DNA of 64,000 nucleotides from a virus, in the IMG/VR virus record IMGVR_UViG_3300036770_006296, positions 62,001 through 126,000 of that record; one strand, 5' to 3'. Below, in pieces: positions 44,142 through 56,845 of the stretch; positions within the stretch are counted from its first letter, which is position 1, and every line of letters begins with the position of its first letter. The position numbers and the translations under genes were made by a program. The notes under the pieces are model-generated. The model saw only the letters and a list, made by a program, of their open reading frames with translations, made no database searches and had not been told where the DNA came from.

Positions 44142-44178
44142 AATCATTTTTTTATTTGTAGAAAAATCCATACATTAG
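44142..44178 (+). promoter_or_regulatory. early-type 37-bp promoter, leaderless class
   Basis: AATCATTTTTTT to TACATTAG, four bases before the ATG at 44183. Confidence 0.85.
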
Positions 44179-44182
44179 CTAC

Positions 44183-44512
44183 ATGAAAGATAAGGATATA
44201 CTAGCGAGAATAAAAGAACTATCAAATGAAGATTGGTTCCAGAACGGTGATGATTCACCGGAAGAGGTCTACGAGGAGCTTTACGGGATAGAAGCTGAAA
44301 ACGATGATCTTGCATATCTTCTCGAGTTAACTATTGGTGGACCGGGATACTCGGATGTTTGGCTTTCACGAGGTGTACTTATAGGAGATGTGCTTGCTTA
44401 CGGAGATGGATTAGAAGAGGGTGAGGAAGTTACTGAGGATGATATCTACGAAGATAATCAAATGTTTATTGCGGAAAGAAGAATGGGTTTACTTGATGAA
44501 ATAATTTTGTAA
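44183..44512 (+). CDS. acidic hypothetical protein
   Basis: 109 residues, strongly acidic, with LLELTIGGPGYSDVWLSRG in the middle and DGLEEGEEVTEDDIYED after it. The GGPGYSDVW segment recurs in phage hypothetical proteins. Its last base is the first base of the next ATG. Confidence 0.67.
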   Translation: MKDKDILARIKELSNEDWFQNGDDSPEEVYEELYGIEAENDDLAYLLELTIGGPGYSDVWLSRGVLIGDVLAYGDGLEEGEEVTEDDIYEDNQMFIAERRMGLLDEIIL

Positions 44513-45372
44513 TGGGATTAACTAAAGATCAAATAGAATGGCTAAATAGCTGCCACGGATGGGCTGGTCTAAAAAAGACTAAATGGACATTTAACGAAGA
44601 AACCGGACTAGTAGACGTAGAGGGTGATTTTATAACCCCCAATTCATATGGTTCTTGTAAAGCTTTAGGACGGAAAGGAGGTGGTGGATATGGAGGTATT
44701 AAGGATTTTATGGGTATTAAATTCGGTACTGTTACTGGGACCTTCGATTGCTCGTATAACAATCTAACAAATATAGAGGGAGCGCCTATTTACGTAGGAG
44801 GGGATTTCGATTGCTCATATAACAAACTCACAAGCTTAGTGGGAGCACCACAAGAAGTTGGAGGTTCCTTCAGTTGTATAGATAATAATCTCACAAGTCT
44901 TATTGGATCTCCTCGAAGGGTTAAGCTTCACTTCCACTGTGCTTATAACAAACTACCAAATCTAGTAGGAGCTCCTATGTACGTGGGAGGGGATTTCTGG
45001 TGCACTGATTTATCCAATGATCTACATATAGAAAGTCTGCACGGAGCAGAAGAATGTATAATAGGTGGAGATTTCGATTGTCATTACAACAAATTGAAAG
45101 ATTTAAAAGGTGCTCCTAGATTAATTTACGGTCAATTTATGGTCTATGGTAATTACGAAGGAAATTACAAAAGAGTTAAAAAAGATACATTCATTCTAAT
45201 AACTAGTACAATGAAAGAAAAAAATCTAGACTATTTTGGCGCTTTGTGCTTATTAAAAGATTCCCTCGATAAGAAGGAATGGAATAAGTTATCTAAAGGT
45301 ATAGACGAAAGATTGTCGAAAGAAGCCCAGAAGGGTCTTAGAATGTTGGACAAGTTTAAAATTTTTGAATAA
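44512..45372 (+). CDS. LRR-like repeat protein, ends KGLRMLDKF
   Basis: 286 residues, the longest of this family. Cap KWTFNEETGLVDVEGDF, a ~25-residue Gly-rich insertion, about six repeats (LTSLVGAPQEVGGSFSC type), the helical C-domain with NLDYFGALCLLKDS, and tail KGLRMLDKFKIFE. Unlike its relatives it lacks its own promoter and is coupled to 44183-44512. Confidence 0.82.
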   Translation: MGLTKDQIEWLNSCHGWAGLKKTKWTFNEETGLVDVEGDFITPNSYGSCKALGRKGGGGYGGIKDFMGIKFGTVTGTFDCSYNNLTNIEGAPIYVGGDFDCSYNKLTSLVGAPQEVGGSFSCIDNNLTSLIGSPRRVKLHFHCAYNKLPNLVGAPMYVGGDFWCTDLSNDLHIESLHGAEECIIGGDFDCHYNKLKDLKGAPRLIYGQFMVYGNYEGNYKRVKKDTFILITSTMKEKNLDYFGALCLLKDSLDKKEWNKLSKGIDERLSKEAQKGLRMLDKFKIFE

Positions 45373-45408
45373 ATCATTTTTTTCTTTATGTAGAATTTTC
45401 TACATTAG
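45372..45408 (+). promoter_or_regulatory. early-type 37-bp promoter
   Basis: AATCATTTTTTT to TACATTAG, starting on the last base of the preceding gene. Confidence 0.85.
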
Positions 45409-45432
45409 CTGTGTAACCAAATAAAAAATAAT

Positions 45433-45981
45433 ATGAGTAACCATCTAAACCCCCACGGAGCCACAGCACAAGAACTAAAGGAACAAGAATTATTAGACTC
45501 ATTATTACACGCAGAATTTGCATGGAACGATTCAAAGACCTTAGAAGAAAAGAAACAAGCATTAGCTCAAGTCAACCTCGCTTTAGAGGCTATCGAAAAG
45601 TTCGAAGAGGAGAAAAAAGCAAAACCTAAAAGACCAAATCTTTATTTCGATGTAGATCCCTCGCTTATCCCTATGATGATGCAAGAGATGGAAGCTCGTG
45701 TAGCACGCCATGAAAGATTACAAAATTGGCAAAATCCTGAATGGATGGATAGACAAGCTGAGGAGTTTAGTAACTTGAAAGAGATGGGTTACTCCGAAAG
45801 CGAAGCAGAGAAATACGTAGGTATACTCGGTAATTCCGTAAAGGAGGTAAAAGAAATCTTGGACTTAGAAGCCAAAGACTACTCGCAATTGAATTGGTGC
45901 CATCCGATCGACGACTATGATTTTGATATCAACCCAGTAGATGAGTGGGACAATCAATCTTGGGCAGAACAAAGAGGGTAA
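45433..45981 (+). CDS. hypothetical early protein
   Basis: 182 residues. Helical N-terminal half with a Lys/Glu-rich linker (KFEEEKKAKPKRPNL), then EMGYSESEAEKYVGILG, which resembles a UBA-like three-helix bundle, and an acidic tail. No family can be named. Confidence 0.67.
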   Translation: MSNHLNPHGATAQELKEQELLDSLLHAEFAWNDSKTLEEKKQALAQVNLALEAIEKFEEEKKAKPKRPNLYFDVDPSLIPMMMQEMEARVARHERLQNWQNPEWMDRQAEEFSNLKEMGYSESEAEKYVGILGNSVKEVKEILDLEAKDYSQLNWCHPIDDYDFDINPVDEWDNQSWAEQRG

Positions 45982-46018
45982 AATCATTTTTTTCTTTAAA
46001 TAGAATTTTCTACATTTA
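45982..46018 (+). promoter_or_regulatory. early-type 37-bp promoter
   Basis: AATCATTTTTTT to TACATTTA, before 46046. Confidence 0.85.
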
Positions 46019-46045
46019 TAGAGTAACCAAATAAAAATTAAAGTA

Positions 46046-46588
46046 ATGGAGAACACACAAGAAGAAAACGCGAGAAAAGGTGAAGCGATGCTAACCAAAT
46101 TCGGAGTAATTAAAAAAATCGGGGTTTATTGCTACGATGTTACAATAGAGAATCATAATGGAGCGGTAGGTACAATATCGAGTGAAGAGGAGCAATTAAT
46201 CATAATCGGTATTAACGAAGAATCTTTAGAAGAGAGAACTAAGGAAGAACACTACGAAGACGATGGATTCATGAGATCAACTACATATTCCTTAGTATTC
46301 AAAGAAGAAGGTTGGACCTCCGACGAGGTCATGGAAAGATTTAATCTAAGCGAATATGAGATAGAGGAAATCCTAGATGGGGAAAACCTTGAATTAGATG
46401 ATTGGGACTTAAGAGATACATATTATTTTGATGAGTGTAAGCTCTCAATTAAAGAGTTAAGGGAGAAAAGAAAGATCGATTCAGAACCTTTCGATGCCGA
46501 CGAGATCATAAGCAAGATTGCTAGCGAGTATGTTCTTACTACAAGAAGAAAAGCATCGCTTGTTAAAAGTATTAAAAAATTATCCTAA
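46046..46588 (+). CDS. protein with N-terminal KGEAMLTKFG peptide, copy 1
   Basis: 180 residues. Starts MENTQEENARKGEAMLTKFG, placing the shared KGxxMLxRFG peptide at residues ~11-20. The C-terminal ~45 residues (ELREKRKIDSEPFDADEI...RRKASLVKSI) are nearly the same as in 47778; the middle parts differ. No family recognised. Confidence 0.74.
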   Translation: MENTQEENARKGEAMLTKFGVIKKIGVYCYDVTIENHNGAVGTISSEEEQLIIIGINEESLEERTKEEHYEDDGFMRSTTYSLVFKEEGWTSDEVMERFNLSEYEIEEILDGENLELDDWDLRDTYYFDECKLSIKELREKRKIDSEPFDADEIISKIASEYVLTTRRKASLVKSIKKLS

Positions 46589-46604
46589 ACTAAAAACGTA
46601 ACAA

Positions 46605-46970
46605 ATGGCAAAGTGTAATAATTGTAAAGGAGAAATGAAGAGGACAAAAAAATTAACAACCTGCGACTTAACAGGAACCCATCAATATATCGAATTCGGA
46701 GAATGTGATTGTGACGACATTTCAGGAAGAATGATAGATTTCGGAGAGAAACCATATTACGAAGAGGTACAGGCTAAAAAAAAGCTTTATCCACCTCATA
46801 TTCAAAGAAAGATCGATCAGCTTGAAGAGCTAGAAGAAATGAATGCTGCTTTAGGACTTCATGATAAGATAGATTCGATTAGACATTTGATTGCTAAAGA
46901 GATCGAAGAGGAAGCAAAAAAAGAAGCACAAGTTTCAAACAAAAGGATAGAATCCGGAGGGTTCATGTAG
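46605..46970 (+). CDS. small zinc-finger-like protein
   Basis: 121 residues. AKCNNCKGEMKRTKK, then TTCDLTG and GECDCDD: C-x2-C plus later cysteines could bind zinc. The C-terminal half is helical with HIQRKIDQLEELEEMNAALG. Second gene of the 45982 cassette. Confidence 0.68.
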   Translation: MAKCNNCKGEMKRTKKLTTCDLTGTHQYIEFGECDCDDISGRMIDFGEKPYYEEVQAKKKLYPPHIQRKIDQLEELEEMNAALGLHDKIDSIRHLIAKEIEEEAKKEAQVSNKRIESGGFM

Positions 46971-47028
46971 ACATGAACGTAATTATATAGCCGCTGCAAA
47001 ACCGAGGGGTGGAGAGATGGCAAACTAA

Positions 47029-47056
47029 GAGAGGACTTTTAAGTCCTCTTTTTTTG
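47029..47056 (+). terminator. hairpin terminator
   Basis: AGAGGACTT, TT, AAGTCCTCT then TTTTTTTGTG. Confidence 0.86.
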
Positions 47057-47094
47057 TGTGGTAAGCCAAAGGGTCAAAGGGCAGATCTAGATGC

Positions 47095-47108
47095 ACTGGG
47101 GAACCCCA
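47095..47108. repeat. intergenic dyad CTGGGGAACCCCAG
   Basis: Consensus copy. The flanks (CTAGATGCA before; GAAGTCTGATCCA and TTAACCTATAGGTTTATT after) are repeated at 53141, so a ~90-bp block was copied. Confidence 0.86.
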
Positions 47109-47149
47109 GGAAGTCTGATCCAGCTTAACCTATAGGTTTATTTTTTTAG

Positions 47150-47186
47150 AATCATTTTTTTATCTGTAGAAAATTCTATATATTAG
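47150..47186 (+). promoter_or_regulatory. early-type 37-bp promoter
   Basis: AATCATTTTTTT to TATATTAG, before 47212. Confidence 0.85.
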
Positions 47187-47211
47187 CTAAGTAACCAATT
47201 AAAACAATAGT

Positions 47212-47754
47212 ATGAAAAGAGTTAATTTAGTAGAAATTTTAGGGGCAGATATATTAGATATATTCAATCGCTCCAGGTATCACTCCAGTCTAGAAAGATT
47301 TAGTGTCTTTGCAGTAGCATCAGACCTTTCTCCTTCTTCCGCAGATTTTATAGAGGAGGTTAAATCTTTAGCGGGATCATATGCCTTTAACTTCTTCCGT
47401 CATATGAGTCTCGAGAAATCAAAAAAGCTATTAGAAAAAGCACAAACTATAGAAGAGATAGAAGATATCATTAAAGAAGAGCTAACTGACTACAGAGACG
47501 GAGACGACGAATATCGGGAGACCTTGGGGATATTCGTAACAGAAATTAAAAATCCGGACATATTAGATGGACTAGTTCATCTTCCCGAAAATTCTTTTAG
47601 TTGTGATGTTGATGTGGAGTCAAGAATAAAAGAGCTTAAGAGTGATGAAAATTTTAAAGAAGCTCTTGAGCTAACCGAATCTTTTAATGAATTAAAAGAT
47701 CTGATAAATAATAATGGACCCAGCAAATACCAAGAAATTCTCGGAAATAGCTAA
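47212..47754 (+). CDS. hypothetical early protein
   Basis: 180 residues, helical, acidic in the second half. No family recognised. Its last codons and stop lie inside a promoter-leader-like sequence (see 47731-47768), so the C-terminus may have been created by a deletion that joined it to the next cassette. Confidence 0.68.
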   Translation: MKRVNLVEILGADILDIFNRSRYHSSLERFSVFAVASDLSPSSADFIEEVKSLAGSYAFNFFRHMSLEKSKKLLEKAQTIEEIEDIIKEELTDYRDGDDEYRETLGIFVTEIKNPDILDGLVHLPENSFSCDVDVESRIKELKSDENFKEALELTESFNELKDLINNNGPSKYQEILGNS

Positions 47755-47768
47755 GTAACCAATTAAAA
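47731..47768 (+). promoter_or_regulatory. remnant of an early promoter and leader
   Basis: AGAAATTCTCGGAAATAG then CTAAGTAACCAATTAAAA: the leader is intact but the -7 box is damaged (GGAAATAG for TATATTAG) and the upstream box is absent. Confidence 0.6.
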
Positions 47769-47777
47769 ATTAGAGTA

Positions 47778-48260
47778 ATGAAGAGCACACAAGAAGAAAA
47801 CGCTAGAAAAGGTGAAGCGATGCTAACAACATTTGAGGTAATTAAAAAAATATACGTATCACCATATATTATTGAAGGCGAGGATGAGCGGGAAATACAT
47901 GTAGTATTATTAGGTGCTAAGGAAGAAGATTTAGAAGATTTTTTCGAAAGAAATGATGACGATGCTGATATCATTGGTACGCCTGAAATTATAGAGATGC
48001 TGCGATCAGAGGCAGAAGAAAGGTACGGGAAGGATCGGATAGAATATATTTTAGGAGCAAGAGATGGATACGTTGATTGGATTCACGGTGAGAATATTTT
48101 TGTCGAAACTCTGATGCCCATAGAAGAATTAAGAGAAAAAAGAAGAATTGAGTCTGAGCCTTTCGATGCTGAGGAGATCATAAGAAAGATTGCTAGCGAA
48201 TATGTTATTACCCAGAGAAGAAAAGAATCGCTTATTGAAATTATAAATAAATTACTCTAG
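47778..48260 (+). CDS. protein with N-terminal KGEAMLTTF peptide, copy 2
   Basis: 160 residues. Starts MKSTQEENARKGEAMLTTFE, parallel to 46046, and ends with ELREKRRIESEPFDAEEI and RRKESLIEII. The central acidic part (DFFERNDDDADIIG) is its own. It has lost an intact promoter and is probably read from 47150. Confidence 0.74.
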   Translation: MKSTQEENARKGEAMLTTFEVIKKIYVSPYIIEGEDEREIHVVLLGAKEEDLEDFFERNDDDADIIGTPEIIEMLRSEAEERYGKDRIEYILGARDGYVDWIHGENIFVETLMPIEELREKRRIESEPFDAEEIIRKIASEYVITQRRKESLIEIINKLL

Positions 48261-48296
48261 ATCATTTTTTTCTTTGTAGAAAATTCCATATATTAG
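48260..48296 (+). promoter_or_regulatory. early-type 37-bp promoter
   Basis: GATCATTTTTTT to TATATTAG, first base at the preceding stop. Confidence 0.84.
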
Positions 48297-48314
48297 CTAA
48301 GTAAATCAATCAGA

Positions 48315-48662
48315 ATGAAATGTCAAAGATGCGGTAACGAGGCCAAGGCACACACGATGTCTATGTTCAATGTACAAACTATTTGTTTACCTTGTAAGGA
48401 GATCGAGAAGAAGCATCCTAAATATGAAGAAGCTTGTAAAACCGATCTCGAATATATTAGGGCAGGCGACTATAACTTTCCTGGTATCGGTTGGGATGCT
48501 TTGACGTACGAGGAAAGGATAGCTTGGTTCGTTAGCAAGTATTACGAGAGTGGTATGGAATACCAGAGCTTACTCGTTACTATGAAGGACGAAGACCTTG
48601 ACAATTTCAAATGGTACGATGACGTGATTAAGTTTCCTAAATATAGATGCGAAATTAAATAG
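48315..48662 (+). CDS. zinc-ribbon phage protein
   Basis: 115 residues. MKCQRCGNEAKAHTMSMFN and ICLPCKEIEKKHPKYEEAC form a C-x2-C...C-x2-C zinc ribbon; GDYNFPGIGWD follows. The arrangement (zinc ribbon, HPxYxxA, G-x-x-N-F-x-G-I-G) is common in phage proteins of unknown function. Confidence 0.76.
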   Translation: MKCQRCGNEAKAHTMSMFNVQTICLPCKEIEKKHPKYEEACKTDLEYIRAGDYNFPGIGWDALTYEERIAWFVSKYYESGMEYQSLLVTMKDEDLDNFKWYDDVIKFPKYRCEIK

Positions 48663-48664
48663 CT

Positions 48665-48910
48665 ATGATAATAATTGACGCAGACTACACTCCAGAATCT
48701 TCAGCGAAACAAGCAGAAAAAGAGTTTGGTAATATGTTGCCACTAGGTATGAAATTTAGAATTGGTACTACACCTAGAGGTAGAAAAAGATTGCAGATTA
48801 AAGAGGGAAGAAAACTAGTGTTTGAATTTAGTACCATCATCGGACAGAAAGATTACCTAACTCGTGATAAGGTTAAGCACGCATTAGAATATATTAAAAA
48901 ATACGGGTAA
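48665..48910 (+). CDS. small hypothetical protein
   Basis: 81 residues, basic, with MKFRIGTTPRGRKRLQIKEG and a C-terminal helix. No family recognised. Two bases after the zinc-ribbon gene and one base before the next. Confidence 0.65.
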   Translation: MIIIDADYTPESSAKQAEKEFGNMLPLGMKFRIGTTPRGRKRLQIKEGRKLVFEFSTIIGQKDYLTRDKVKHALEYIKKYG

Positions 48911-48911
48911 C

Positions 48912-49247
48912 ATGGCAGAGAAAATAGACCCACTAAAAATTGCAAGGTCCTCCAGAGACATGGACGTGAAAGGACTCGTAGGATTCTTTTATGCACACCA
49001 AAGTAAGTTCTGGTCGTGGGGACCGCACAATTTTGTAGATATAAAAAGTAGAGGCTTACGCTTTAATGTTCAAGGACACCACCACACTGGACATGTGTAT
49101 CTGTTCGTCAATGGATTGGACTTGTTCGATATTTACCTTACCTCATCCCATGGTACGATAAAAGAAACTATAAATGATATTTACTTAGACGATTTGTTTG
49201 ATACTCTTGATAAGAAGATCGAGTGGATTGATATCTATGAAGATTAA
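48912..49247 (+). CDS. hypothetical early protein
   Basis: 111 residues. Contains FWSWGPHNFVDIKSRGLRFN and VQGHHHTGHVYLFVNG, a His-rich beta segment that could bind metal. Third gene of the 48260 cassette. No family can be named. Confidence 0.67.
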   Translation: MAEKIDPLKIARSSRDMDVKGLVGFFYAHQSKFWSWGPHNFVDIKSRGLRFNVQGHHHTGHVYLFVNGLDLFDIYLTSSHGTIKETINDIYLDDLFDTLDKKIEWIDIYED

Positions 49248-49249
49248 GA

Positions 49250-49286
49250 AATCATTTTTTTCTTTAGGTAGAAATTTCTATATTAG
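49250..49286 (+). promoter_or_regulatory. early-type 37-bp promoter
   Basis: AATCATTTTTTT to TATATTAG, before 49313. Confidence 0.85.
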
Positions 49287-49312
49287 CTAGGTAACCAATT
49301 AAAATAATAAAA

Positions 49313-49777
49313 ATGGATAATAAAGTTTTTGTTCTCTCTTATTACAATGGATATTATGATGAGTGGAAAAAGAAAAAAACCTATTCAAACTATAACGAAG
49401 TCCTGAAATTTTTATGGAAAAAATTTACTAAATCAACGAAGAAAGACTTTTATGGGAATCCAATGGAACCTGAAGTAAACAGTTATACTTTTGAGGATAC
49501 TATTTATTGTAGTTATCTTGAAAGTACCGAAGAGGGAGCTGAAATTCTCAAAAAATCGAATTCTTGGAAAGAATTTTTAGAAGCTATAAAAGATGTTGAT
49601 TGTATAGAATCTTTCTGCTTGGACGAATTTTCTTCTAAAGATAAAGCGATAGTTGGTGAGGTAGGAGACGGAATTGAAATAAGTCAAGCTCAGATTTTAT
49701 TAGACCTTGATCTATCCGAAGGACTTAATAACCTATATGATTTTAATAAATTCAAAAAGAATTATTTGTCTTGTTAA
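49313..49777 (+). CDS. early paralogue (no leader) of the late gene 61536-62153
   Basis: 154 residues. Matches 61536 in TIYCSYLESTEEGAEILKKS, then NSWKEFLEAI, and ISQAQILLDLDLSEGLNNL (against ISQNQILLDMNKLPGGLDSL). It lacks the MKHIRLFESF leader of that protein and has an early promoter. Function unknown. The pair suggests one domain used in two phases, once made in the cell and once possibly packaged. Confidence 0.75.
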   Translation: MDNKVFVLSYYNGYYDEWKKKKTYSNYNEVLKFLWKKFTKSTKKDFYGNPMEPEVNSYTFEDTIYCSYLESTEEGAEILKKSNSWKEFLEAIKDVDCIESFCLDEFSSKDKAIVGEVGDGIEISQAQILLDLDLSEGLNNLYDFNKFKKNYLSC

Positions 49778-49794
49778 TCAATTAAAATAATATC

Positions 49795-49986
49795 ATGGGA
49801 ACAAAAAATGTTTATGTCTTAGTCCACTCTAATCCGGATTACGTGAATGTTGAAGTTTATGAAAAAGAGGAGGATGCGATACAAGCTCTTGAAGAGTTAG
49901 CAAATGAGTACGATATGGAAGTGGACGGGAGTGAAGCTTTTGGAGACGAAGATCATGCTATAGTAGAAGAGAAGGAAGTGATATAA
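49795..49986 (+). CDS. small acidic protein
   Basis: 63 residues, acidic, starting MGTKNVYVLVHSNPDYV; helix EEDAIQALEELANEYD. No family recognised. It is preceded by AATCAATTAAAATAATATC, a leader-like A-rich stretch. Confidence 0.65.
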   Translation: MGTKNVYVLVHSNPDYVNVEVYEKEEDAIQALEELANEYDMEVDGSEAFGDEDHAIVEEKEVI

Positions 49987-50008
49987 AATAATTTCAATTA
50001 TTTTTCAG

Positions 50009-50045
50009 AATCATTTTTTTATTCATGTAGAAATTTCTATATTTG
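50009..50045 (+). promoter_or_regulatory. early-type 37-bp promoter of the sigma gene
   Basis: AATCATTTTTTT to TATATTTG, before 50075; the sigma gene thus has the promoter class it might itself read. Confidence 0.85.
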
Positions 50046-50074
50046 TAATGTTAATCAATTAAACAAAAACAATT

Positions 50075-50920
50075 ATGAAACATCACATTTTTCAGCAATC
50101 AGTTACAGGACGTAACGAAGTAGTAGACGCTTACCTAAGCGAAATCAACAAAATCTCGATGGTCAATCCGGACGAGGAAAAAGTTCTTTGCGACCGTATC
50201 ATCTCTGGCCAGAATGGCTTAGACGAAAAGGCTCGTCAAAGATTTGTCGAGGGCAACTTAAGATTTGTCGTATCGGTTGCGAAACAGTACCAAGGTTCGG
50301 GACTAGAGTTAATGGACTTAATCAACGAAGGGAATGTCGGCTTAGTTAAAGCTTCCCAACTATTCGACCCGACCAGAGGTATACGTTTCATCTCATTTGC
50401 AGTTTGGTGGGTTCGCCAGGCAATCATGGAGTCGCTAAAAGAGAAAGGGCGTTTGGTAAAACTCCCTCTAAATCAAATCAACGCTCAAAAGAAAATCTCC
50501 CGTGAAATGGACCAAATCCTAAAGACGGAAGGGTTCACATCGGTTGACTTGGCAGCGGCTTCTTTAGGACTCGAGCCGGAAAAATACCAAACACAATCTT
50601 CAGTTTCGCTAAGTACACCTATCGGAGAAGAAGACTTCACACTAGGCGATACTCTATCAGACGGAACAGTTTCAGATGAGGGATTAGAAAAACTAAGTTT
50701 TATCAAACAGATATCCGCAGTACTTAAAACGTTAGAGGAAAGAGAAAGCTTCGTAATCTCTAACTGGTTCGGAGTCAACGGTCAGTCACAAAGACCAAAA
50801 AGCGATATTGCAAAAGACCTCGGAATCTCAGAAGAGCGAGTAGAACAAATCTACCACAAAGCAATTCGCAAACTCAAAGCTTCTAACCGCTCTCGCCTAC
50901 TAAAACATTTTGTTTCATAG
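50075..50920 (+). CDS. phage-encoded RpoD-like sigma-70 factor
   Basis: 281 residues, colinear with the Bacteroidota primary sigma: region 1.2 (NEVVDAYLSEINKISMVNPD), region 2 with NLRFVVSVAKQYQGSGLELM, DLINEGNVGLVKA, FDPTRGIRFISFAVWWVRQA, region 3, and region 4 with LEERESFVISNWFGVNG and DLGISEERVEQIYHKAIRKL. Region 2.4, which reads the -7 box, is well kept, while region 4.2 is more divergent. Known: such factors direct RNA polymerase to promoters. Inferred: it may reprogram host polymerase to the AATCATTTTTTT promoters or to late promoters. Codons are notably more GC-rich. Confidence 0.93.
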   Translation: MKHHIFQQSVTGRNEVVDAYLSEINKISMVNPDEEKVLCDRIISGQNGLDEKARQRFVEGNLRFVVSVAKQYQGSGLELMDLINEGNVGLVKASQLFDPTRGIRFISFAVWWVRQAIMESLKEKGRLVKLPLNQINAQKKISREMDQILKTEGFTSVDLAAASLGLEPEKYQTQSSVSLSTPIGEEDFTLGDTLSDGTVSDEGLEKLSFIKQISAVLKTLEERESFVISNWFGVNGQSQRPKSDIAKDLGISEERVEQIYHKAIRKLKASNRSRLLKHFVS

Positions 50921-50935
50921 GTTTGGTTGATTAAC

Positions 50936-50967
50936 AAAAAGAGAGGAGACTTCGGTCTCCTTTTTTT
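50936..50967 (+). terminator. hairpin terminator
   Basis: GGAGAC, TTCG, GTCTCC then TTTTTTTGTG. Confidence 0.88.
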
Positions 50968-51002
50968 GTGGACCTAAGTTTATTATCCAGTGAATGATAA
51001 AT

Positions 51003-51019
51003 CCCCAGAGGTACCCCAG
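51003..51019. repeat. intergenic dyad, variant CAGAGGTACCCCAG
   Basis: The left arm differs, but the centre GGTACC is still palindromic. Confidence 0.6.
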
Positions 51020-51067
51020 GATCTGGATTTATAACCTGTAATATTGGATTTACATTAAAATAATAAT

Positions 51068-51100
51068 GGGGTCCTCACCAGGGGGCCACGCACGCGTAGG
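51068..51100. repeat. GGGGTCC / CCACGCACGCG intergenic repeat
   Basis: GGGGTCCTCACCAGGGGG then CCACGCACGCGTAGG. Confidence 0.75.
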
Positions 51101-51120
51101 GTATTTTAGAATAAACCACA

Positions 51121-51157
51121 AATCATTTTTTAGTTTAGTTAAGATTACTTATATTAG
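51121..51157 (+). promoter_or_regulatory. early-type 37-bp promoter, leaderless class
   Basis: AATCATTTTTTA to TATATTAG, four bases before the ATG at 51162. Confidence 0.84.
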
Positions 51158-51161
51158 CTAT

Positions 51162-51485
51162 ATGGAAACAATCAATAGAGACACATTCAAAACACATGAA
51201 TTCTTTGCAGAGATTATGAAGAAAGAGTCTCATCACAGCCATGAGATTGTAGATGAAGGTCATGGTGCAAGATGGAAGGAAGATCCTGATGTATGTAAGT
51301 TGGTTGATGACATGGGAGGTTTAAATAACATTATAAGACTTTTCTTTTCACTTGGTATAACAAAGAATTCTGAGGAATGGAGAAAGCTTTACAGAGATAT
51401 AGGTTATTCACTCTATGGATATTGGGAGATATTCTATTGGGAAACGAATAACGAAGATGCTGCTGATTATCGTTCAGATTGTTAG
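51162..51485 (+). CDS. hypothetical early protein
   Basis: 107 residues from the ATG fixed by the promoter. His-rich start (HEFFAEIMKKESHHSHEIVD) and an aromatic C-terminus (YSLYGYWEIFYWETN). No family recognised. Confidence 0.68.
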   Translation: METINRDTFKTHEFFAEIMKKESHHSHEIVDEGHGARWKEDPDVCKLVDDMGGLNNIIRLFFSLGITKNSEEWRKLYRDIGYSLYGYWEIFYWETNNEDAADYRSDC

Positions 51486-51506
51486 TAGTTTGATTGATTA
51501 ACAGGA

Positions 51507-51535
51507 AAAGGTCGGATTCGCATCCGGCCTTTTTC
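51507..51535 (+). terminator. hairpin terminator
   Basis: AAAGGTCGGAT, TCGC, ATCCGGCCTTTTT with one wobble pair, ending CGTG. Confidence 0.82.
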
Positions 51536-51573
51536 GTGCTCCAAGGTTTGCTGGATGTTGGCTGGAAGATGCA

Positions 51574-51587
51574 CTGGGGAACCCCAG
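51574..51587. repeat. intergenic dyad CTGGGGAACCCCAG
   Basis: Consensus copy preceded by GATGCA. Confidence 0.85.
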
Positions 51588-51639
51588 GAGCTTTAGGCCT
51601 GCCTGGAATTATTTTTAGAAATTTCTATTTTTTTCTAAG

Positions 51640-51676
51640 AATCATTTTTTTCTAAGTAGAAAAATCCATATATTAG
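51640..51676 (+). promoter_or_regulatory. early-type 37-bp promoter
   Basis: AATCATTTTTTT to TATATTAG, before 51704. Confidence 0.85.
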
Positions 51677-51703
51677 CTAAGTAACCAATTAAATTATTTA
51701 TTT

Positions 51704-52006
51704 ATGAAAAAGGAGATGTCAGTAGAACAAAAAGCAAAAAAAGCAGCAGCTAACAAAGCTTATCGTGAGCGCAAGAAAATGCAATCTCAAGACTGGATGG
51801 TATTGGATAAATTTGAAATGTCGTTTGAACATAAAATTCGACTTTTCAAAAACCTTAAATTGGAAATTGAAAATTCCTATTGCGCAAGTCCCGGTACGGT
51901 CTTAAAGTTTGAGCGAATCAAAAATGAAGACAATAAGATTATCTTCCGAGTCCGTAGAACAGGGCGAAGAACTTTCTTTACGACTTCTGAATTCCTAGTC
52001 GTATAG
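51704..52006 (+). CDS. RVRR-domain small protein, copy 1
   Basis: 100 residues. A Lys/Ala-rich start (VEQKAKKAAANKAYRERKK), then WMVLDKFEMSFEHKIRLFKN, SYCASPGTVLKFERIKN and FRVRRTGRRTFFTTS. The NKAYRERKK segment equals the piece after the zinc finger of 37595, and the rest matches the C-domain of 29463. Two close paralogues follow at 55657 and 58436. Basic, beta-rich; nucleic acid or ribosome binding is plausible. Confidence 0.75.
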   Translation: MKKEMSVEQKAKKAAANKAYRERKKMQSQDWMVLDKFEMSFEHKIRLFKNLKLEIENSYCASPGTVLKFERIKNEDNKIIFRVRRTGRRTFFTTSEFLVV

Positions 52007-52025
52007 GAATTCAGAAGAACCCTGG

Positions 52026-52051
52026 AAAAGGAGCCATTGGCTCCTTTTTTT
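52026..52051 (+). terminator. hairpin terminator
   Basis: AAAGGAGCC, ATT, GGCTCCTTT then T-run and GTG. Confidence 0.86.
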
Positions 52052-52083
52052 GTGACCAAAACCTATGGCTGTCCTATTCTTCT

Positions 52084-52097
52084 CTGGGGAACCCCAG
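52084..52097. repeat. intergenic dyad CTGGGGAACCCCAG
   Basis: Consensus copy followed by GAAGTTTGATCAGG and the promoter. Confidence 0.85.
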
Positions 52098-52111
52098 GAA
52101 GTTTGATCAGG

Positions 52112-52148
52112 AATCATTTTTTAGTTTCCATAGAATTCGCTACATTTA
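52112..52148 (+). promoter_or_regulatory. early-type 37-bp promoter, leaderless class
   Basis: AATCATTTTTTA to TACATTTA, four bases before the ATG at 52153. Confidence 0.85.
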
Positions 52149-52152
52149 CCAC

Positions 52153-52530
52153 ATGGCTAGATACAAGATAAGATTTAATTTAAGCAAGGGTGTCAACTAC
52201 ATGAAATGGAAGGTGACACATCCTGATGGTGAGGTTGAATACTTAGATCCAAATAAAGTGCGTCTAACGCTTAAAAATTGTCACCTCAAGAACAATCCTA
52301 AGACAGCTAATAAAATCTTAGCAGGCGCAAATAAAAGCGTGTGTGCATGGATCCTTTGTGATGATGTAATCCTTGAGGAACCCCACGGTGGAGATCCAAT
52401 GGAAGAAGTGCAAAGACTCCGGTTCAACCCCAGGGTAGCAGCAAACTGGATGTTCAGAGATGTCAATGTTGACTTTGTGAAGTACCACAGGATAGAAAGC
52501 AGGGGTGATCGCCTTTATGTTATTTATTAG
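52153..52530 (+). CDS. hypothetical early protein
   Basis: 125 residues, basic and beta-rich. Contains WKVTHPDGEVEYLDPNKVRL, an N-x-H-L-K-N-N-P-K-T-A segment, and SVCAWILCDDVIL. No family recognised. Confidence 0.7.
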   Translation: MARYKIRFNLSKGVNYMKWKVTHPDGEVEYLDPNKVRLTLKNCHLKNNPKTANKILAGANKSVCAWILCDDVILEEPHGGDPMEEVQRLRFNPRVAANWMFRDVNVDFVKYHRIESRGDRLYVIY

Positions 52531-52531
52531 A

Positions 52532-52568
52532 AATCATTTTTTTCTTTGTAGAAAATTCTATATATTAG
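52532..52568 (+). promoter_or_regulatory. early-type 37-bp promoter
   Basis: AATCATTTTTTT to TATATTAG, before 52594. Confidence 0.85.
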
Positions 52569-52593
52569 CTAAGTAACCAATTAAATAAAATAA

Positions 52594-52851
52594 ATGAAAA
52601 AGAATTTTTTAGCAGTAGTTGTTTTTAAAGAATATTTAGGAGGACCTGGAGGAGCTGGAGAAGGAATACAGATTCATAAGATCGAGGCATCAGATAAAGA
52701 TGAAGCAAGAAGCATTGTTTATGAAATGCACGGTATTCCTGAAGGACCATCTGAGGATGATTACGAAGATGAGGACGAATATTATGAAGCATCCGAAGAA
52801 TGGGAGGAAGATAATGATGGTGTATGTGTCGAGATCTTTGATTACATTTAA
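52594..52851 (+). CDS. acidic small protein
   Basis: 85 residues. A beta start (FLAVVVFKEYLGGPGGAGEG), then a very acidic second half (SEDDYEDEDEYYEASEEWEE). Similar in composition to 28166 and 53932. No family recognised. Confidence 0.68.
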   Translation: MKKNFLAVVVFKEYLGGPGGAGEGIQIHKIEASDKDEARSIVYEMHGIPEGPSEDDYEDEDEYYEASEEWEEDNDGVCVEIFDYI

Positions 52852-52874
52852 AATTAGGAATCATTTTTTTTAAG

Positions 52875-53051
52875 GTGAAACAGATAGAACAAGCTAAAAC
52901 AATTTTAGAATCCCACGACATACTCGATGGCAGGGATTATATAATTTCCCTACAAGGACCGACAGTGATACTAACCATAGAAGGTAAGACTAAAATCACT
53001 CCGCAGATAATTGACGAATTAATTCCCACAGGTGTAGGCGTAATGCTTTAA
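52875..53051 (+). CDS. 58-residue protein with GTG start, promoter truncated
   Basis: Reads VKQIEQAKTILESHDILDG then RDYIISLQGPTVILTIEGK and ends PTGVGVML; a plausible alpha/beta microdomain. Just upstream at 52859 stands AATCATTTTTTTT, but no -7 box follows at the right distance and the coding frame begins almost directly after the T-run. It is probably expressed by read-through from 52532. Confidence 0.55.
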   Translation: MKQIEQAKTILESHDILDGRDYIISLQGPTVILTIEGKTKITPQIIDELIPTGVGVML

Positions 53052-53080
53052 AGTTATGGGATTTTTTTATTTAAATAAAG

Positions 53081-53104
53081 CCAGCCTTAGAGCTGGTTTT
53101 TTTG
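53081..53104 (+). terminator. hairpin terminator
   Basis: CCAGC, CTTAG, AGCTGG then TTTTTTTGTG. Confidence 0.8.
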
Positions 53105-53140
53105 TGGATCTTAGAAATCAACTAGGCAGATCTAGATGCA

Positions 53141-53154
53141 CTGGGGAACCCCAG
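53141..53154. repeat. intergenic dyad CTGGGGAACCCCAG
   Basis: Consensus copy within a ~90-bp block that is nearly the same as at 47085-47150 (including TTAACCTATAGGTTTATT). Confidence 0.86.
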
Positions 53155-53193
53155 GAAGTCTGATCCAACTTAACCTATAGGTTTATTTTCAGA

Positions 53194-53230
53194 AATCATT
53201 TTTTTCTTTGTAGAAAAATCTATATATTAG
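53194..53230 (+). promoter_or_regulatory. early-type 37-bp promoter
   Basis: AATCATTTTTTT to TATATTAG, before 53254. Confidence 0.85.
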
Positions 53231-53253
53231 CTAAGTAACTAAATAAACAGAGA

Positions 53254-53490
53254 ATGAAGAAGGGAGATAGAATTAAGGTGACATTTACCAAAGACACATT
53301 ACTAGTTGTATACCCAAAGTCAGACAAGCGTTATAGGGAAGGGTGTGAAGAAATGTTTTTGGAGGGACAAACATTAGAATTTGAGATCTTAGAAATCAAG
53401 AACGAAGGTGAGACTATAGAAGTTAAATTTCTTAGCGAGCTTTATTCAATCCATTACATGGGAGTTATAAGTAATATTATTTTTGTTTGA
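53254..53490 (+). CDS. small beta-rich protein
   Basis: 78 residues. MKKGDRIKVTFTKDTLLVVY and EGQTLEFEILEIKNEGETI suggest an SH3-like or OB-like small barrel. No family recognised. Overlaps the convergent gene 53477-53662 by 14 bp. Confidence 0.66.
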   Translation: MKKGDRIKVTFTKDTLLVVYPKSDKRYREGCEEMFLEGQTLEFEILEIKNEGETIEVKFLSELYSIHYMGVISNIIFV

Positions 53491-53662
53491 GTTCTTCAAT
53501 AAAATTCAATATACTTTCCTCACCATCAATTGTTTTAACCGAGTCATCTAGATAAATAACAACAATTCTTGGCGGTAAATCGTTCTCCATAAATGATTGA
53601 ATTTTTTCTATTCCTTTAGCATCTAATATTGTTTCATCAATATCTTTTAAATAATCTTTCAT
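53477..53662 (-). CDS. small protein on the minus strand
   Basis: 61 residues: MKDYLKDIDETILDAKGIEK, then RIVVIYLDDSVKTIDGEES. It is the only clear minus-strand gene between 22.8 and 64 kb. The leader contains TAACAATTAAAAAAG, as in the minus genes at 2440 and 4329, and TATTTTTG lies upstream. No family recognised. Confidence 0.58.
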   Translation of the reverse strand: MKDYLKDIDETILDAKGIEKIQSFMENDLPPRIVVIYLDDSVKTIDGEESILNFIEELKQK

Positions 53663-53685
53663 AATTTTCTTTTTTAATTGTTAAA

Positions 53686-53693
53686 CAAAAATA
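53686..53693 (-). promoter_or_regulatory. -7 box TATTTTTG, atypical promoter
   Basis: Fits TAnnTTTG, but AATC...T7 is absent at the 37-bp distance; perhaps a host-type promoter for 53477-53662. Confidence 0.45.
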
Positions 53694-53867
53694 ATACATA
53701 CTTATAACAACAAATATAAGAAATAAATCTTACTTTGTCTATTTTTTAATGAAAAGATTTACTTCTCATATTTGCAACCGATAAAACTTTTTTATTCCCT
53801 TCTGGGTTTAAAAATAATGATACGCATGGGAGAAGACAGTATTTTAAAATTATCTAAAATCCCAAGG

Positions 53868-53904
53868 AATCATTTTTTTCTTTAGATAGAATTTTCTACA
53901 TTTG
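53868..53904 (+). promoter_or_regulatory. early-type 37-bp promoter
   Basis: AATCATTTTTTT to TACATTTG, before 53932. Confidence 0.85.
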
Positions 53905-53931
53905 TATCGTAACCACTAAAAAATAAAAAAA

Positions 53932-54297
53932 ATGGATAATCAAGAAGAAGAAAACATAAGGAAGGGCAAAAGTATGCTAGTAAAATTTGGGGTGATTGAT
54001 CCCAGATTAGATAGAGCTGTTAGGAAATATTATAATGGAAGAAGATCAAACGATTCAGCTTTTGATGATATTTTTGAATTCTATTACGATAAAGGAGACC
54101 TTTCAGCCGCGGGTATAACTATAGCGGAGTACGATGAATTAGATTGGAATCCTAGCGTCAGTGTACGAGCGCAGGTTGTAAACTGTGCAGAGCTTGATGA
54201 TGAATTATTTGATTATCTAAGAGGTATTGTAGATCCTGATTGGTACGATGATGACGATGATGACGATGATGACGATGATGACGATGACGGATGGTAG
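53932..54297 (+). CDS. protein with N-terminal KGKSMLVKFG peptide and Asp tail
   Basis: 121 residues. MDNQEEENIRKGKSMLVKFG places the shared peptide at residues ~11-20, as in 46046 and 47778. The body is acidic and ends in a run of about 13 aspartates before GW. The GATGATGAC repeat is prone to slippage. No family recognised. Confidence 0.72.
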   Translation: MDNQEEENIRKGKSMLVKFGVIDPRLDRAVRKYYNGRRSNDSAFDDIFEFYYDKGDLSAAGITIAEYDELDWNPSVSVRAQVVNCAELDDELFDYLRGIVDPDWYDDDDDDDDDDDDDDGW

Positions 54298-54319
54298 AAA
54301 AAGAATTAAAAAGATTTGG

Positions 54320-54356
54320 AATCATTTTTATTATTGTAGAAGAATCCATATATTAG
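54320..54356 (+). promoter_or_regulatory. early-type 37-bp promoter
   Basis: AATCATTTTTAT to TATATTAG, before 54384. Confidence 0.84.
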
Positions 54357-54383
54357 CTAAGTAAATCAATTAAACAAAATCAA

Positions 54384-54560
54384 ATGGAAAAACTAGCAGC
54401 AAAAATTAATCTAATTGTTGTAGCACTACTCGTTTTATCAGCAGCAGCGATCTTCTTCATCTCAGTGGTAAGAGGAGATTTAATAATTGGTATCATCGGA
54501 GGAGCATTAACTTGGATAGGAATACAAATCTTAAAAATCACAATCAATGAATCAGCGTAA
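54384..54560 (+). CDS. small membrane protein, two helices
   Basis: 58 residues: hydrophobic stretch ~8-28 (INLIVVALLVLSAAAIFF) and a second ~33-51 (LIIGIIGGALTWIGI), ending KITINESA. No family recognised. Overlaps 54547-54657 by 14 bp. Confidence 0.66.
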   Translation: MEKLAAKINLIVVALLVLSAAAIFFISVVRGDLIIGIIGGALTWIGIQILKITINESA

Positions 54561-54657
54561 ACCAAACAAAACACTAGGAGACCTATACGTTGAGGTTGTC
54601 CTGGTAATAGGGATACCCTTAGGAATAGTAGCACTACTCAACTGGCTGACCCTATAA
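54547..54657 (+). CDS. 36-residue membrane microprotein
   Basis: MNQRKPNKTLGDLYVEVVLV then a hydrophobic helix VIGIPLGIVALLNWLTL. A single predicted membrane helix with positive residues at the N-terminus. Coupled to 54384-54560. Confidence 0.55.
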   Translation: MNQRKPNKTLGDLYVEVVLVIGIPLGIVALLNWLTL

Positions 54658-54662
54658 TATAA

Positions 54663-54703
54663 CGGGGTCCCCACCCGGAGGCCGCGTGCCTACGTGCGTA
54701 CGT
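54663..54703. repeat. GGGGTCC / CGTACGTG intergenic repeat
   Basis: CGGGGTCCCCACCCGGAGG then CCGCGTGCCTACGTGCGTACG, directly after the stop at 54657 with no standard terminator. Confidence 0.78.
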
Positions 54704-54727
54704 GAGGAATAAATCAGAAAAAAACGG

Positions 54728-54764
54728 AATCATTTTTTTAACCAGAGCATTTTAGATACATTTA
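54728..54764 (+). promoter_or_regulatory. early-type 37-bp promoter, leaderless class
   Basis: AATCATTTTTTT to TACATTTA, four bases before the ATG at 54769. Confidence 0.84.
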
Positions 54765-54768
54765 CCTC

Positions 54769-55056
54769 ATGAACACTTACAAATTTAGAGCAGAATGCCT
54801 TCACGATGTGATACAATTCATGAGTCATGCTCCAGAGGTAATACAACAGATAGATGTACAAAAGGATGAAAGGTTTCCTGATTGCTATGTCACTCTTAAA
54901 ACCACCTCAGAGATGTCAGAAGTACTAAATAAAATACTTGAAATGCAAGGAGACGTTCACGTTATGTTTGAGAGTCTTCAACCAGAAGGGGAATACACAG
55001 GAGAAAGAATAAGAAGCTTTCATTCATCATCAAAAGACAACTTCATGGAGAAGTAA
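54769..55056 (+). CDS. hypothetical early protein
   Basis: 95 residues, alpha/beta, with FRAECLHDVIQFMSHAPEV and VTLKTTSEMSEVLNKILEM. Could be a small ferredoxin-like fold. No family recognised. Confidence 0.67.
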   Translation: MNTYKFRAECLHDVIQFMSHAPEVIQQIDVQKDERFPDCYVTLKTTSEMSEVLNKILEMQGDVHVMFESLQPEGEYTGERIRSFHSSSKDNFMEK

Positions 55057-55100
55057 AAAAGACTATTCTGTGATTAGTTTAGTTTGATTAACACCCAAGA

Positions 55101-55134
55101 TAGGGATTCGGCTTCGGCTCGGATCCCTTTTTTG
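55101..55134 (+). terminator. hairpin terminator
   Basis: GGGATTCGGC, TTCG, GCTCGGATCCC (imperfect) then TTTTTTGCG. Confidence 0.72.
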
Positions 55135-55170
55135 CGAGCCGAGGTTTTTTGACCTGGCCTGGATTAATCT

Positions 55171-55184
55171 CTGGGGAACCCCAG
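55171..55184. repeat. intergenic dyad CTGGGGAACCCCAG
   Basis: Consensus copy followed by GAATCCTGATCCAGC. Confidence 0.85.
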
Positions 55185-55230
55185 GAATCCTGATCCAGCA
55201 GATGTAAGAGAAGTGTAAACTTTTTTCAGA

Positions 55231-55267
55231 AATCATTTTTATTCCTGTAGAAAATTCTATATATTTG
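55231..55267 (+). promoter_or_regulatory. early-type 37-bp promoter
   Basis: AATCATTTTTAT to TATATTTG, before 55295. Confidence 0.84.
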
Positions 55268-55294
55268 TATTGTTAATCAATCAAACAAAAATAA

Positions 55295-55444
55295 ATGAAA
55301 GCAGAAACAAAAAAGAAATTAGAATTCTTAATGGAATTAGGTTTAACCCAAAATGAAATTAATGAACTTCTAGATAATCAATCTATTCTTGATGAATCAA
55401 AAGAATTCAAAAAAGAAGAAGTTGAAGAAGATGAAGATTACTAA
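55295..55444 (+). CDS. 49-residue acidic helical protein
   Basis: MKAETKKKLEFLMELGLTQN, then EINELLDNQSILDESKEF and an acidic end EEVEEDEDY. It has its own promoter and terminator, which supports it as a gene despite its length. No family recognised. Confidence 0.65.
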   Translation: MKAETKKKLEFLMELGLTQNEINELLDNQSILDESKEFKKEEVEEDEDY

Positions 55445-55465
55445 GGGGTTAGTAATAAAAAAGGG

Positions 55466-55491
55466 AAGGAGACTTAGGTCTCCTTTTTTTG
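55466..55491 (+). terminator. hairpin terminator
   Basis: AAGGAGAC, TTA, GTCTCCTT then T-run and GTG. Confidence 0.86.
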
Positions 55492-55520
55492 TGGGGAAAA
55501 TCTAGACCAGCTAGATGCTC

Positions 55521-55534
55521 CTGCGGTGCCCCAG
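55521..55534. repeat. intergenic dyad, variant CTGCGGTGCCCCAG
   Basis: Outer arms kept, fourth position unpaired. Confidence 0.75.
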
Positions 55535-55590
55535 GAATCCTGATCCAAACCCCAATAAATTTTTTTTAGAAAATTCCACTTTTTTCCAAG

Positions 55591-55627
55591 AATCATTTTT
55601 TATATTAGAATATTCTACATATATTTG
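55591..55627 (+). promoter_or_regulatory. early-type 37-bp promoter
   Basis: AATCATTTTTTA to TATATTTG, before 55657. Confidence 0.84.
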
Positions 55628-55656
55628 TATAGTTAATCAATTAAACAATATCAATT

Positions 55657-55968
55657 ATGAAAAAGGAAATGACAGCAGAACAAAAAGCAAAAAAGGCGGC
55701 AGCTAACAAGGCGTACAGAGAGCGCAAAAAAATGCAATCTCAAAACTGGATGGAACTCGACAAGTTCGAAATGAGTTTCGAGCATAAAGTTCGACTTTTC
55801 AAAAACCTCAAATTGGAAATCACAAATTCCTATTGCGCATCTCCGGGGACAGTTTTGAAATTTGAAAAACTCACTAATAACGATAACACAATCGTTTATC
55901 GGGTTCGCCGCACAGGTCGAAGAACTTTCTTCACCACCTCCGTCCACCTTCACGCTCCCGCTGAATAG
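55657..55968 (+). CDS. RVRR-domain small protein, copy 2
   Basis: 103 residues, very close to 51704 along its length: TAEQKAKKAAANKAYRERKK, WMELDKFEMSFEHKVRLFKN, SYCASPGTVLKFEKLTN and YRVRRTGRRTFFTTS. The upstream ~60 bp (TTTTTAGAAATTTCCACTTT type) is also copied, so the whole cassette was duplicated. Confidence 0.75.
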   Translation: MKKEMTAEQKAKKAAANKAYRERKKMQSQNWMELDKFEMSFEHKVRLFKNLKLEITNSYCASPGTVLKFEKLTNNDNTIVYRVRRTGRRTFFTTSVHLHAPAE

Positions 55969-55984
55969 CCGGGACTCACCATAG

Positions 55985-56009
55985 AAAGGAGCTTAGGCTC
56001 CTTTTTTTG
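55985..56009 (+). terminator. hairpin terminator
   Basis: AAAGGAGC, TTA, GCTCCTTT then T-run and GTG. Confidence 0.86.
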
Positions 56010-56046
56010 TGCCCAAAGGTTTCTGGATGTAGGCTGAGATAAACTC

Positions 56047-56060
56047 CTGGGGCTCCTCAG
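56047..56060. repeat. intergenic dyad, variant CTGGGGCTCCTCAG
   Basis: Wobble-type change in the right arm. Confidence 0.75.
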
Positions 56061-56093
56061 GAAATTTTCACATCTTCCTTATCTATAAGATTT

Positions 56094-56198
56094 ATGGAAG
56101 AGATAGATAAAATAAAAAGATGGGGTTGTATAGGAATAGTATTCATTACTATCCTATGGACTTCACTTATCTACTGGGCATTGTCCAAAGCATTCTGA
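56094..56198 (+). CDS. 34-residue membrane microprotein
   Basis: MEEIDKIKRWGCIGIVFITI then LWTSLIYWALSKAF: a charged start followed by one membrane helix. It lies between two dyads and has no clear promoter, so confidence is limited. Confidence 0.45.
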   Translation: MEEIDKIKRWGCIGIVFITILWTSLIYWALSKAF

Positions 56199-56208
56199 GG
56201 ATCCTCCG
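56195..56208. repeat. intergenic dyad, variant CTGAGGATCCTCCG
   Basis: Overlaps the stop codon of 56094-56198; GAGGATCCTC is a perfect palindrome. Confidence 0.6.
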
Positions 56209-56241
56209 AGAATCCCAGCTGGCCCAGAAATAATAATCAGG

Positions 56242-56278
56242 AATCATTTTTTTATTTGTGGAAAAATCTATATATTAG
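56242..56278 (+). promoter_or_regulatory. early-type 37-bp promoter
   Basis: AATCATTTTTTT to TATATTAG, before 56305. Confidence 0.85.
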
Positions 56279-56304
56279 CTTGTTAATCAATTAAACAAAA
56301 GCCA

Positions 56305-56460
56305 ATGTATTCTTTAGATTGTGATTATTACACAAAACAATTCCCATCCATCGATGATCTCATATCGGATATTATATCATCTGGCATGGACCCAAATTAT
56401 GTAATAACCTATAATGGTGTACCCATAGGTTATCAAGCTATTGAGCTAATTCAATTTTAA
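56305..56460 (+). CDS. 51-residue protein, tandem copy A
   Basis: MYSLDCDYYTKQFPSIDDLI, then DIISSGMDPNYVITYNG and a tail GYQAIELIQF. Clearly paralogous to 56518. Function unknown. The end of this gene is part of an 82-bp repeat. Confidence 0.7.
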   Translation: MYSLDCDYYTKQFPSIDDLISDIISSGMDPNYVITYNGVPIGYQAIELIQF

Positions 56461-56462
56461 GA

Positions 56463-56499
56463 AATCATTTTTTTCTTCAAATAGATTTTTCTACATTTA
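56463..56499 (+). promoter_or_regulatory. early-type 37-bp promoter
   Basis: AATCATTTTTTT to TACATTTA, before 56518. Confidence 0.85.
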
Positions 56500-56517
56500 C
56501 ATTATAAAACAAATTTT

Positions 56518-56757
56518 ATGTATTCATTAGACTGTGATTACTACAAAAAAGAATTCTCAACCCTTGATGAACTCTTGGACGATATTATACTATCTGGTAT
56601 GGACCCAAATTATTTAATAACATACAATGGGGCCACCTTCAACTACCAAGCTATTGAACTAATAACTGGACGTATGAGCCAGCATTTCCCGAATGTTAAC
56701 ATTACCAAAGAACTCATGATGACATTTTGCAGTTGGGTAAAGTCCCGGAAGAATTAA
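56518..56757 (+). CDS. 79-residue protein, tandem copy B
   Basis: MYSLDCDYYKKEFSTLDELL, then DIILSGMDPNYLITYNG and NYQAIELITG as in copy A, plus 28 extra residues (MSQHFPNVNITKELMMTFCS and on). Copy A looks like a shortened form. Function unknown. Confidence 0.72.
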   Translation: MYSLDCDYYKKEFSTLDELLDDIILSGMDPNYLITYNGATFNYQAIELITGRMSQHFPNVNITKELMMTFCSWVKSRKN

Positions 56758-56787
56758 TCAAGCTATTGAACTAATTCAATTTTAAGA

Positions 56788-56824
56788 AATCATTTTTTTC
56801 TTCAAATAGATTTTTCTACATTTA
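56788..56824 (+). promoter_or_regulatory. early-type 37-bp promoter (copied in the 82-bp repeat)
   Basis: Identical in sequence to 56463-56499; now drives 56846. Confidence 0.85.
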
Positions 56825-56845
56825 CATTATAAAACAAAGACCTAC

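Follow-up and report, generated by a model that had tools for sequence, protein, structure and literature searches.

We identify a phage-encoded sigma-70 family factor, SigA', whose gene lies within a large array of uniform promoters and bears one of them itself. SigA' is the best candidate for the reader of these class I promoters. We propose that it takes the host core RNA polymerase to class I early promoters, its own included, and thereby amplifies itself, a reading of the DNA that we hold to be probable, though far from assured. Core binding, the pairing of sigma factor with promoter class and the order in time are what we infer; the genes, the promoter classes, the residue changes and their placement are read off the record directly. 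The stretch analysed here (the window, 64,000 nucleotides) comes from a linear virus record of 206,617 bp, of which it covers bases 62001-126000; the record has three sigma genes, SigA' within the window and SigB' and SigC' outside it. A second record, IMGVR_3300035670_000118, encodes an identical SigA' (100%) and likewise three sigma genes. The -7 box and SigB' point to Bacteroidota as the host phylum.

SigA' is an RpoD-like sigma factor with a divergent region 4.2

SigA' is encoded on the plus strand at 50075..50920 (ATG start, 281 aa), and its assignment as a sigma-70 family factor with regions 1.2-4 draws on the ORF and on Pfam, PHROG, NCBIfam and PDB matches. Regions 2, 3 and 4 exceed the curated Pfam cut-offs (Sigma70_r2, 8.7e-17, 61.1 bits; r3, 3.9e-07, 30.5 bits; r4, 1.3e-09, 37.8 bits), and region 1.2 is weak, just under its own (r1_2, 2.6e-4, 21.3 bits, cut-off 22). 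The profile of PHROG 351 (sigma factor) matches residues 21-279 (6.8e-52), and the top matches in a PDB search are SigA chains (1.2e-47). Two NCBIfam RpoD equivalog models score below their cut-offs (NF006666, 190 bits against 572; TIGR02393, 168.5 against 354), and by the former score, which falls well short, SigA' resembles RpoD without being one.

Compared with the host RpoD consensus, SigA' is identical at a fraction of 0.76 in regions 2.1-2.2 and 0.57 in regions 2.3-2.4, with the WWxRQ motif of region 2.4 kept, versus 0.29 in region 4.2, where the sister factor SigB' reaches 0.50. An earlier note on this DNA described a protein that keeps regions 1.2 to 4, with region 2.4 well kept and 4.2 more divergent, and these values bear out that contrast. 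Its label of a primary-type Bacteroidota sigma factor holds insofar as SigA' is RpoD-like, but suits SigB' better: in trees with Bacteroidota RpoD, SigB' nests among them and SigA' forms a long branch.

SigA' forms a single-gene transcription unit: a class I promoter and a short leader precede the coding sequence, and an intrinsic terminator follows at 50940..50967 (plus strand; GGAGAC-TTCG-GTCTCC, then T7). The promoter, a pattern match to AATCATTTTTTT-N17-TATATTTG at 50009..50045 on the plus strand, is the 37-bp copy that the gene had been said to carry.

Class I promoters form a large and uniform array

About 50 class I promoters (AATCA-T7-N17-TAnATT[T/A][G/A]), mostly intergenic, extend over 23093..60158 on the plus strand. 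The plus strand of the window has about 51-52 copies of the pattern, where Markov shuffles give 0.2; genome-wide, with class II included, it occurs 63 times forward and 9 times in reverse, against 0 and 0 for a reversed-pattern control. Nearly all copies share one value among the spacings of 12-29 tested. Most lie at 83-124 kb of the genome, upstream of small genes. The -7 box of the 51 scored copies ends in TTAG (23), TTTA (17) or the exact host TTTG (11), and the SigA' promoter belongs to this last group; of the earlier description of a kept -7 box beneath a changed upstream box, the altered upstream box stands and the -7 box proves relaxed. For nine promoters the distance between the -7 TA and the ATG is 12-13 bases, and with that TA at -12/-11 their messages should be nearly leaderless.

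Host-type promoters show no such excess. The pattern TTTG-N18-21-TAnnTTTG is not enriched genome-wide (7 versus 4 in the control), a looser TTG pattern occurs 3 times in the window against 3.9 expected, and neither window nor genome holds host-type promoters above chance that could give a first kick.

Several further elements accompany the array. Most class I promoters (window 23112-59447) have the palindrome TAGAAnnTTCTA across or directly beside their -7 box; 26 exact copies lie at these promoters and one elsewhere in the window. It occurs in registers -10, -12 and -14, some promoters carry a further copy near -43 or -53, and it resembles the operator of a dimeric regulator. A D5-like transcription regulator (phrog_323, 2.9e-7; 21553..22197, plus strand) stands at the start of the array and is a possible activator or repressor. 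The hairpin CTGGGGAACCCCAGG, or a close variant, recurs about 15-20 bases 5' of the AATCA box (near 33050-33090, 35510-35550, 39190-39230 and 42630-42670) and perhaps terminates the preceding gene. The leader between -7 box and ATG, AACCAATTAAA or TTAATCAATTAAA, is common to class I genes of the window and to the array genes of a related phage, L007, and may be a signal for translation in hosts without Shine-Dalgarno sites.

The recognition helix and the bases at -33 and -31

The recognition helix of region 4.2, SEERVEQIYHKAIRKL (aa 252-267; codons at 50828..50875, plus strand), has glutamate where E. coli sigma70 has R584 and R588. SigA' thus reads E584, E585, E588 and Q589 in place of the Bacteroidota RpoD pattern K/R584, E585, R588 and Q589, and the net charge of the helix drops from +4/+5 to +1. 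Every one of the 80 host RpoDs has K or R at residue 584, where SigA' alone has E. Residue 588 is E in SigA' and R in 80/80 host RpoDs as well as in 57/57 other sigma rows, which include sister sigmas and some near-duplicates and so are not 57 independent cases. The peptides that gathered most of these rows lie outside region 4.2, leaving the sample unbiased by the helix; in two other sigma collections, one peptide of six came from region 4.

Genetics of E. coli sigma70 ties R584 to position -31; E585 contacts -33, and changes at R588 relax -33 (PMC2613000). Flavobacterial numbering sets the -7 box at -12 to -5 (PMC9723704), which places the class I T tract at -36 to -30. Among sites chosen by AATCA and TAnnTT only, T occupies -33 in 46/46 and -31 in 43/46; among sites chosen by the spacer palindrome and -7 box only, -33 is T in 32 of 33. 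Bacteroidota promoters have G at -33.

Near some 90 sigma-bearing viral loci, a local promoter array was found only at the SigA' locus (own/L006), at L007 and at L188. Phage L188 provides the contrast to SigA': its sigma factor has the host-like R584, E585 and R588, and the array of host-type promoters beside the sigma gene (AATTTGGT ... TACCTTTG, 12900-20600) shows G at -33 in 12/12. L007 bears 26-28 promoters of the form TAGG-T7-CCTACG at 3900-20843, in the same register as class I, with the sigma gene inside the array and under an array-type promoter. These promoters have T at both -33 and -31, yet the sigma factor keeps K584 and R588. The helix change is therefore not required for T at -33, residue and base do not strictly covary, and the residue-base match comes down to two cases, SigA' and L188. 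We also considered whether the L007 box is a terminator hairpin and rejected this as a general rule: a few copies do resemble terminators, but pairing of the flanks beyond the core is close to random (9/28, 13/28, 9/28 and similar values). The right arm CCTACG is retained even where the left arm is lost.

SigA' as the proposed reader of class I promoters

We favor SigA' as the class I reader because E584 and E588 stand at residues that in E. coli sigma70 affect the reading of -31 and -33, both of which are T in class I; this support is indirect. The pairing is further favored by the position of the sigma gene inside the array under its own class I promoter, an arrangement repeated in L007, by the three sigma genes of the record together with an invariant spacing far above chance, and by the lack of excess of host-type promoters. 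Against it stand the two further sigma factors, the host-like helix of L007, and G005, a related record that uses ATCA-T7 promoters and in whose 154 kb SigA' was not found, although the distance between its SigB' and SigC' genes suggests that the array region is likely missing. The suggestion in the earlier note that SigA' reads the 37-bp promoters is thus sustained in part. Two other records were dropped as evidence against the pairing: G002 stops after genes that match window 21-46 kb, and G003 stops near 27 kb, both short of the sigma position.

Under the proposed mechanism, region 2 of SigA' would read the Bacteroidota-type -7 box and its altered 4.2 helix would fit the altered upstream box AATCA-T7, with T for G at -33. 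Since the gene has a class I promoter and a terminator to itself, it would amplify its own product. A SigA'-dependent promoter cannot by itself start SigA', a point that also counts against the pairing; the first copies would probably come from weak reading of class I promoters by host RpoD, to which the exact host -7 box of the SigA' promoter lends support, or from protein carried in the virion.

The strongest rival places class I among immediate-early promoters that host RpoD reads through the -7 box and A/T-rich upstream DNA, SigA' being a product that reads a later class. We consider this unlikely, while regarding it as a serious contender. Many strong promoters before small genes, as in this array, are also typical of the early regions of T4, which host polymerase reads (PMC2988021). 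The class I -7 box resembles host TAnnTTTG, the first promoter needs some reader, and ATC-T7 promoters also precede the SigA' and SigB' genes. T4 early promoters, however, are excellent matches to the host elements (PMC2988021), whereas class I has T at -33 in 46/46 sites and lacks the exact TTTG at -7 in 40/51. Nor does the altered helix suit another class better, class II having the same T7 tract and class III, GATATATA, no upstream box.

Less probable still is that AATCA-T7 is bound by a phage activator instead of region 4.2, with SigA' supplying the -7 contact and its altered helix having lost DNA reading. T4 middle promoters provide the precedent, combining a phage MotA box at nearly fixed spacing with a host -10 element (PMC2988021). 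The L007 motif CCTACG, at about -29 to -24, reaches past the usual -35 contacts of region 4.2 and leaves room for an activator; the fall in helix charge and the D5-like regulator at the array start fit as well. That regulator, however, is only a candidate, and the exactly fixed spacing of class I is what direct sigma contact would be expected to give. Since an activator would keep SigA' in the reader, it would refine our main reading, not oppose it. We give very little credence to a reading in which SigB' serves the ATC-T7 promoters of both class I and class II, leaving SigA' a different or lesser function: G005 combines such promoters with SigB', and L007 shows that a host-like helix is compatible with T at -33, but the SigB' helix is close to that of host RpoD, a reader of G at -33, and SigB' lies outside the array that holds SigA' and that G005 probably lacks.

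Sister sigma factors and a possible cascade

SigB' (286 aa; L004 6717-7577, genome 148.7 kb) shows up to 63% identity to Bacteroidota RpoD and adjoins a Flavobacteriales RpoD in two trees, and by this placement is a captured Bacteroidota RpoD. SigC' (293 aa; L005 7511-8392) falls in a separate clade with its G005 orthologue and has a divergent region 4 with the divergent helix TTEWARII. In four phages (this record, G005, L152 and L168) the SigB' gene is under an ATC[A/C]-T7 promoter, as a cascade in which SigB' follows SigA' would have it.

Class II promoters have the box ATC[C/T]-T7, often with CTC before the -7 box. One lies at 2903..2939 on the minus strand (ATCC-T7 ... GCTC TATATTTG) and a second at about 4804-4840, also on the minus strand; the SigB' promoter has an ATCC box. 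The late-type class III promoter GATATATA occurs at 2962..2969 (plus strand; without an upstream box, 26 bp 5' of an ATG) and again at 841 and 6649 (plus strand). Class III copies mostly lie 12-30 bp 5' of an ATG, before proteins that start MKH or similar. RGATATATA occurs 30 times forward and 6 in reverse, against 9 and 9 in the control, and recurs in G005. We note that in L004, L005 and window 57-64 kb many proteins, often behind GATATATA, start MKHI or MKHLK..FE.F, which is reminiscent, in sequence, of the capsid-targeting leaders of internal head proteins.

For the late GATATATA promoters, which stand before virion genes, our candidate is SigC', an assignment drawn solely from its divergent helix and the missing upstream box. 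We tentatively extend these pairings to a three-sigma cascade on the Bacteroidota polymerase, a fuller scheme that we hold to be less likely than not: SigA' would read a new -33 box via its charge-reversed helix and drive about 50 near-identical promoters including its own, SigB' and then SigC' at GATATATA would follow, and TAGAAnnTTCTA would serve as a shared early off-switch.

Comparison with known systems

A charge-reversed helix, a large uniform promoter array and three sigma factors in one Bacteroidota phage appear to be a new combination; the open papers that we searched contain no description of such a system. With Bacteroidota primary sigma factors (RpoD/sigma-A; TTTG / TAnnTTTG), SigA' shares regions 2-4, with a weak region 1.2, and a short N-terminus, WWxRQ and the -7 TAnnTT. 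It differs in having E584/E588 for K/R584 and R588, and in promoters that lack G at -33 and whose -7 box ends in [T/A][G/A].

SPO1, a phage of a Bacillus host with different promoters, directs its sigma cascade through gp28 and then gp33/gp34, successive phage sigma factors on the host core. Our three-sigma proposal likewise places successive factors on the host core, in a temporal order that is proposed only. RpoD-like sigma factors are known in group 2 jumbo phages (PMC7824862); these and PHROG 351 are likewise phage-encoded, near-complete and RpoD-type, in a setting where, as here, no polymerase of the phage's own was seen. SigA' differs in its unique helix, its link to a large uniform array and its two sister sigmas. 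phiEco32 gp36 and phage 7-11 gp47 serve 6-8 promoters at middle/late genes, tested in vitro (PMC8948821); they resemble SigA' as phage sigma factors proposed to act on host core at phage-specific promoters, whereas SigA' has about 50 predicted promoters, its own gene's among them, known from sequence alone. T4 middle promoters share the replacement of the upstream box by a phage box with a -10 type element kept, but use host sigma70 with AsiA and MotA (PMC2988021); here a phage sigma factor is at hand, and the part of the proteins scanned gave no match to AsiA or MotA relatives.

Phage sigma factors are common and their promoters usually unknown, and the -33/-7 promoters of Bacteroidota are unusual and little studied. 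About 50 candidate cognate promoters, two residue changes and matching bases make Bacteroidota sigma specificity directly testable. If our reading is true, host RpoD should read this promoter set poorly; the sigma factor and its promoters would then be a useful tool for genetics in Bacteroidota, and the virus would exemplify a transcription programme run by several sigma factors in a large phage of this phylum.

Other features of the window

Two near-identical units of about 90 nt (58894-58985 and 59268-59360) each follow TATATTTG and end in a strong hairpin, AACCCTAGA/TCTAGGGTT. An Rfam scan of the window gave no match, these units included; with fold z-scores of -2.95 and -3.26, they are possible paired small RNAs. 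On the minus strand, 15253-19444 holds a run of some nine neighbouring genes for proteins of 115-231 aa; at least eight are interrelated via one L007 protein, and judged by these relationships the run is a gene family expansion.
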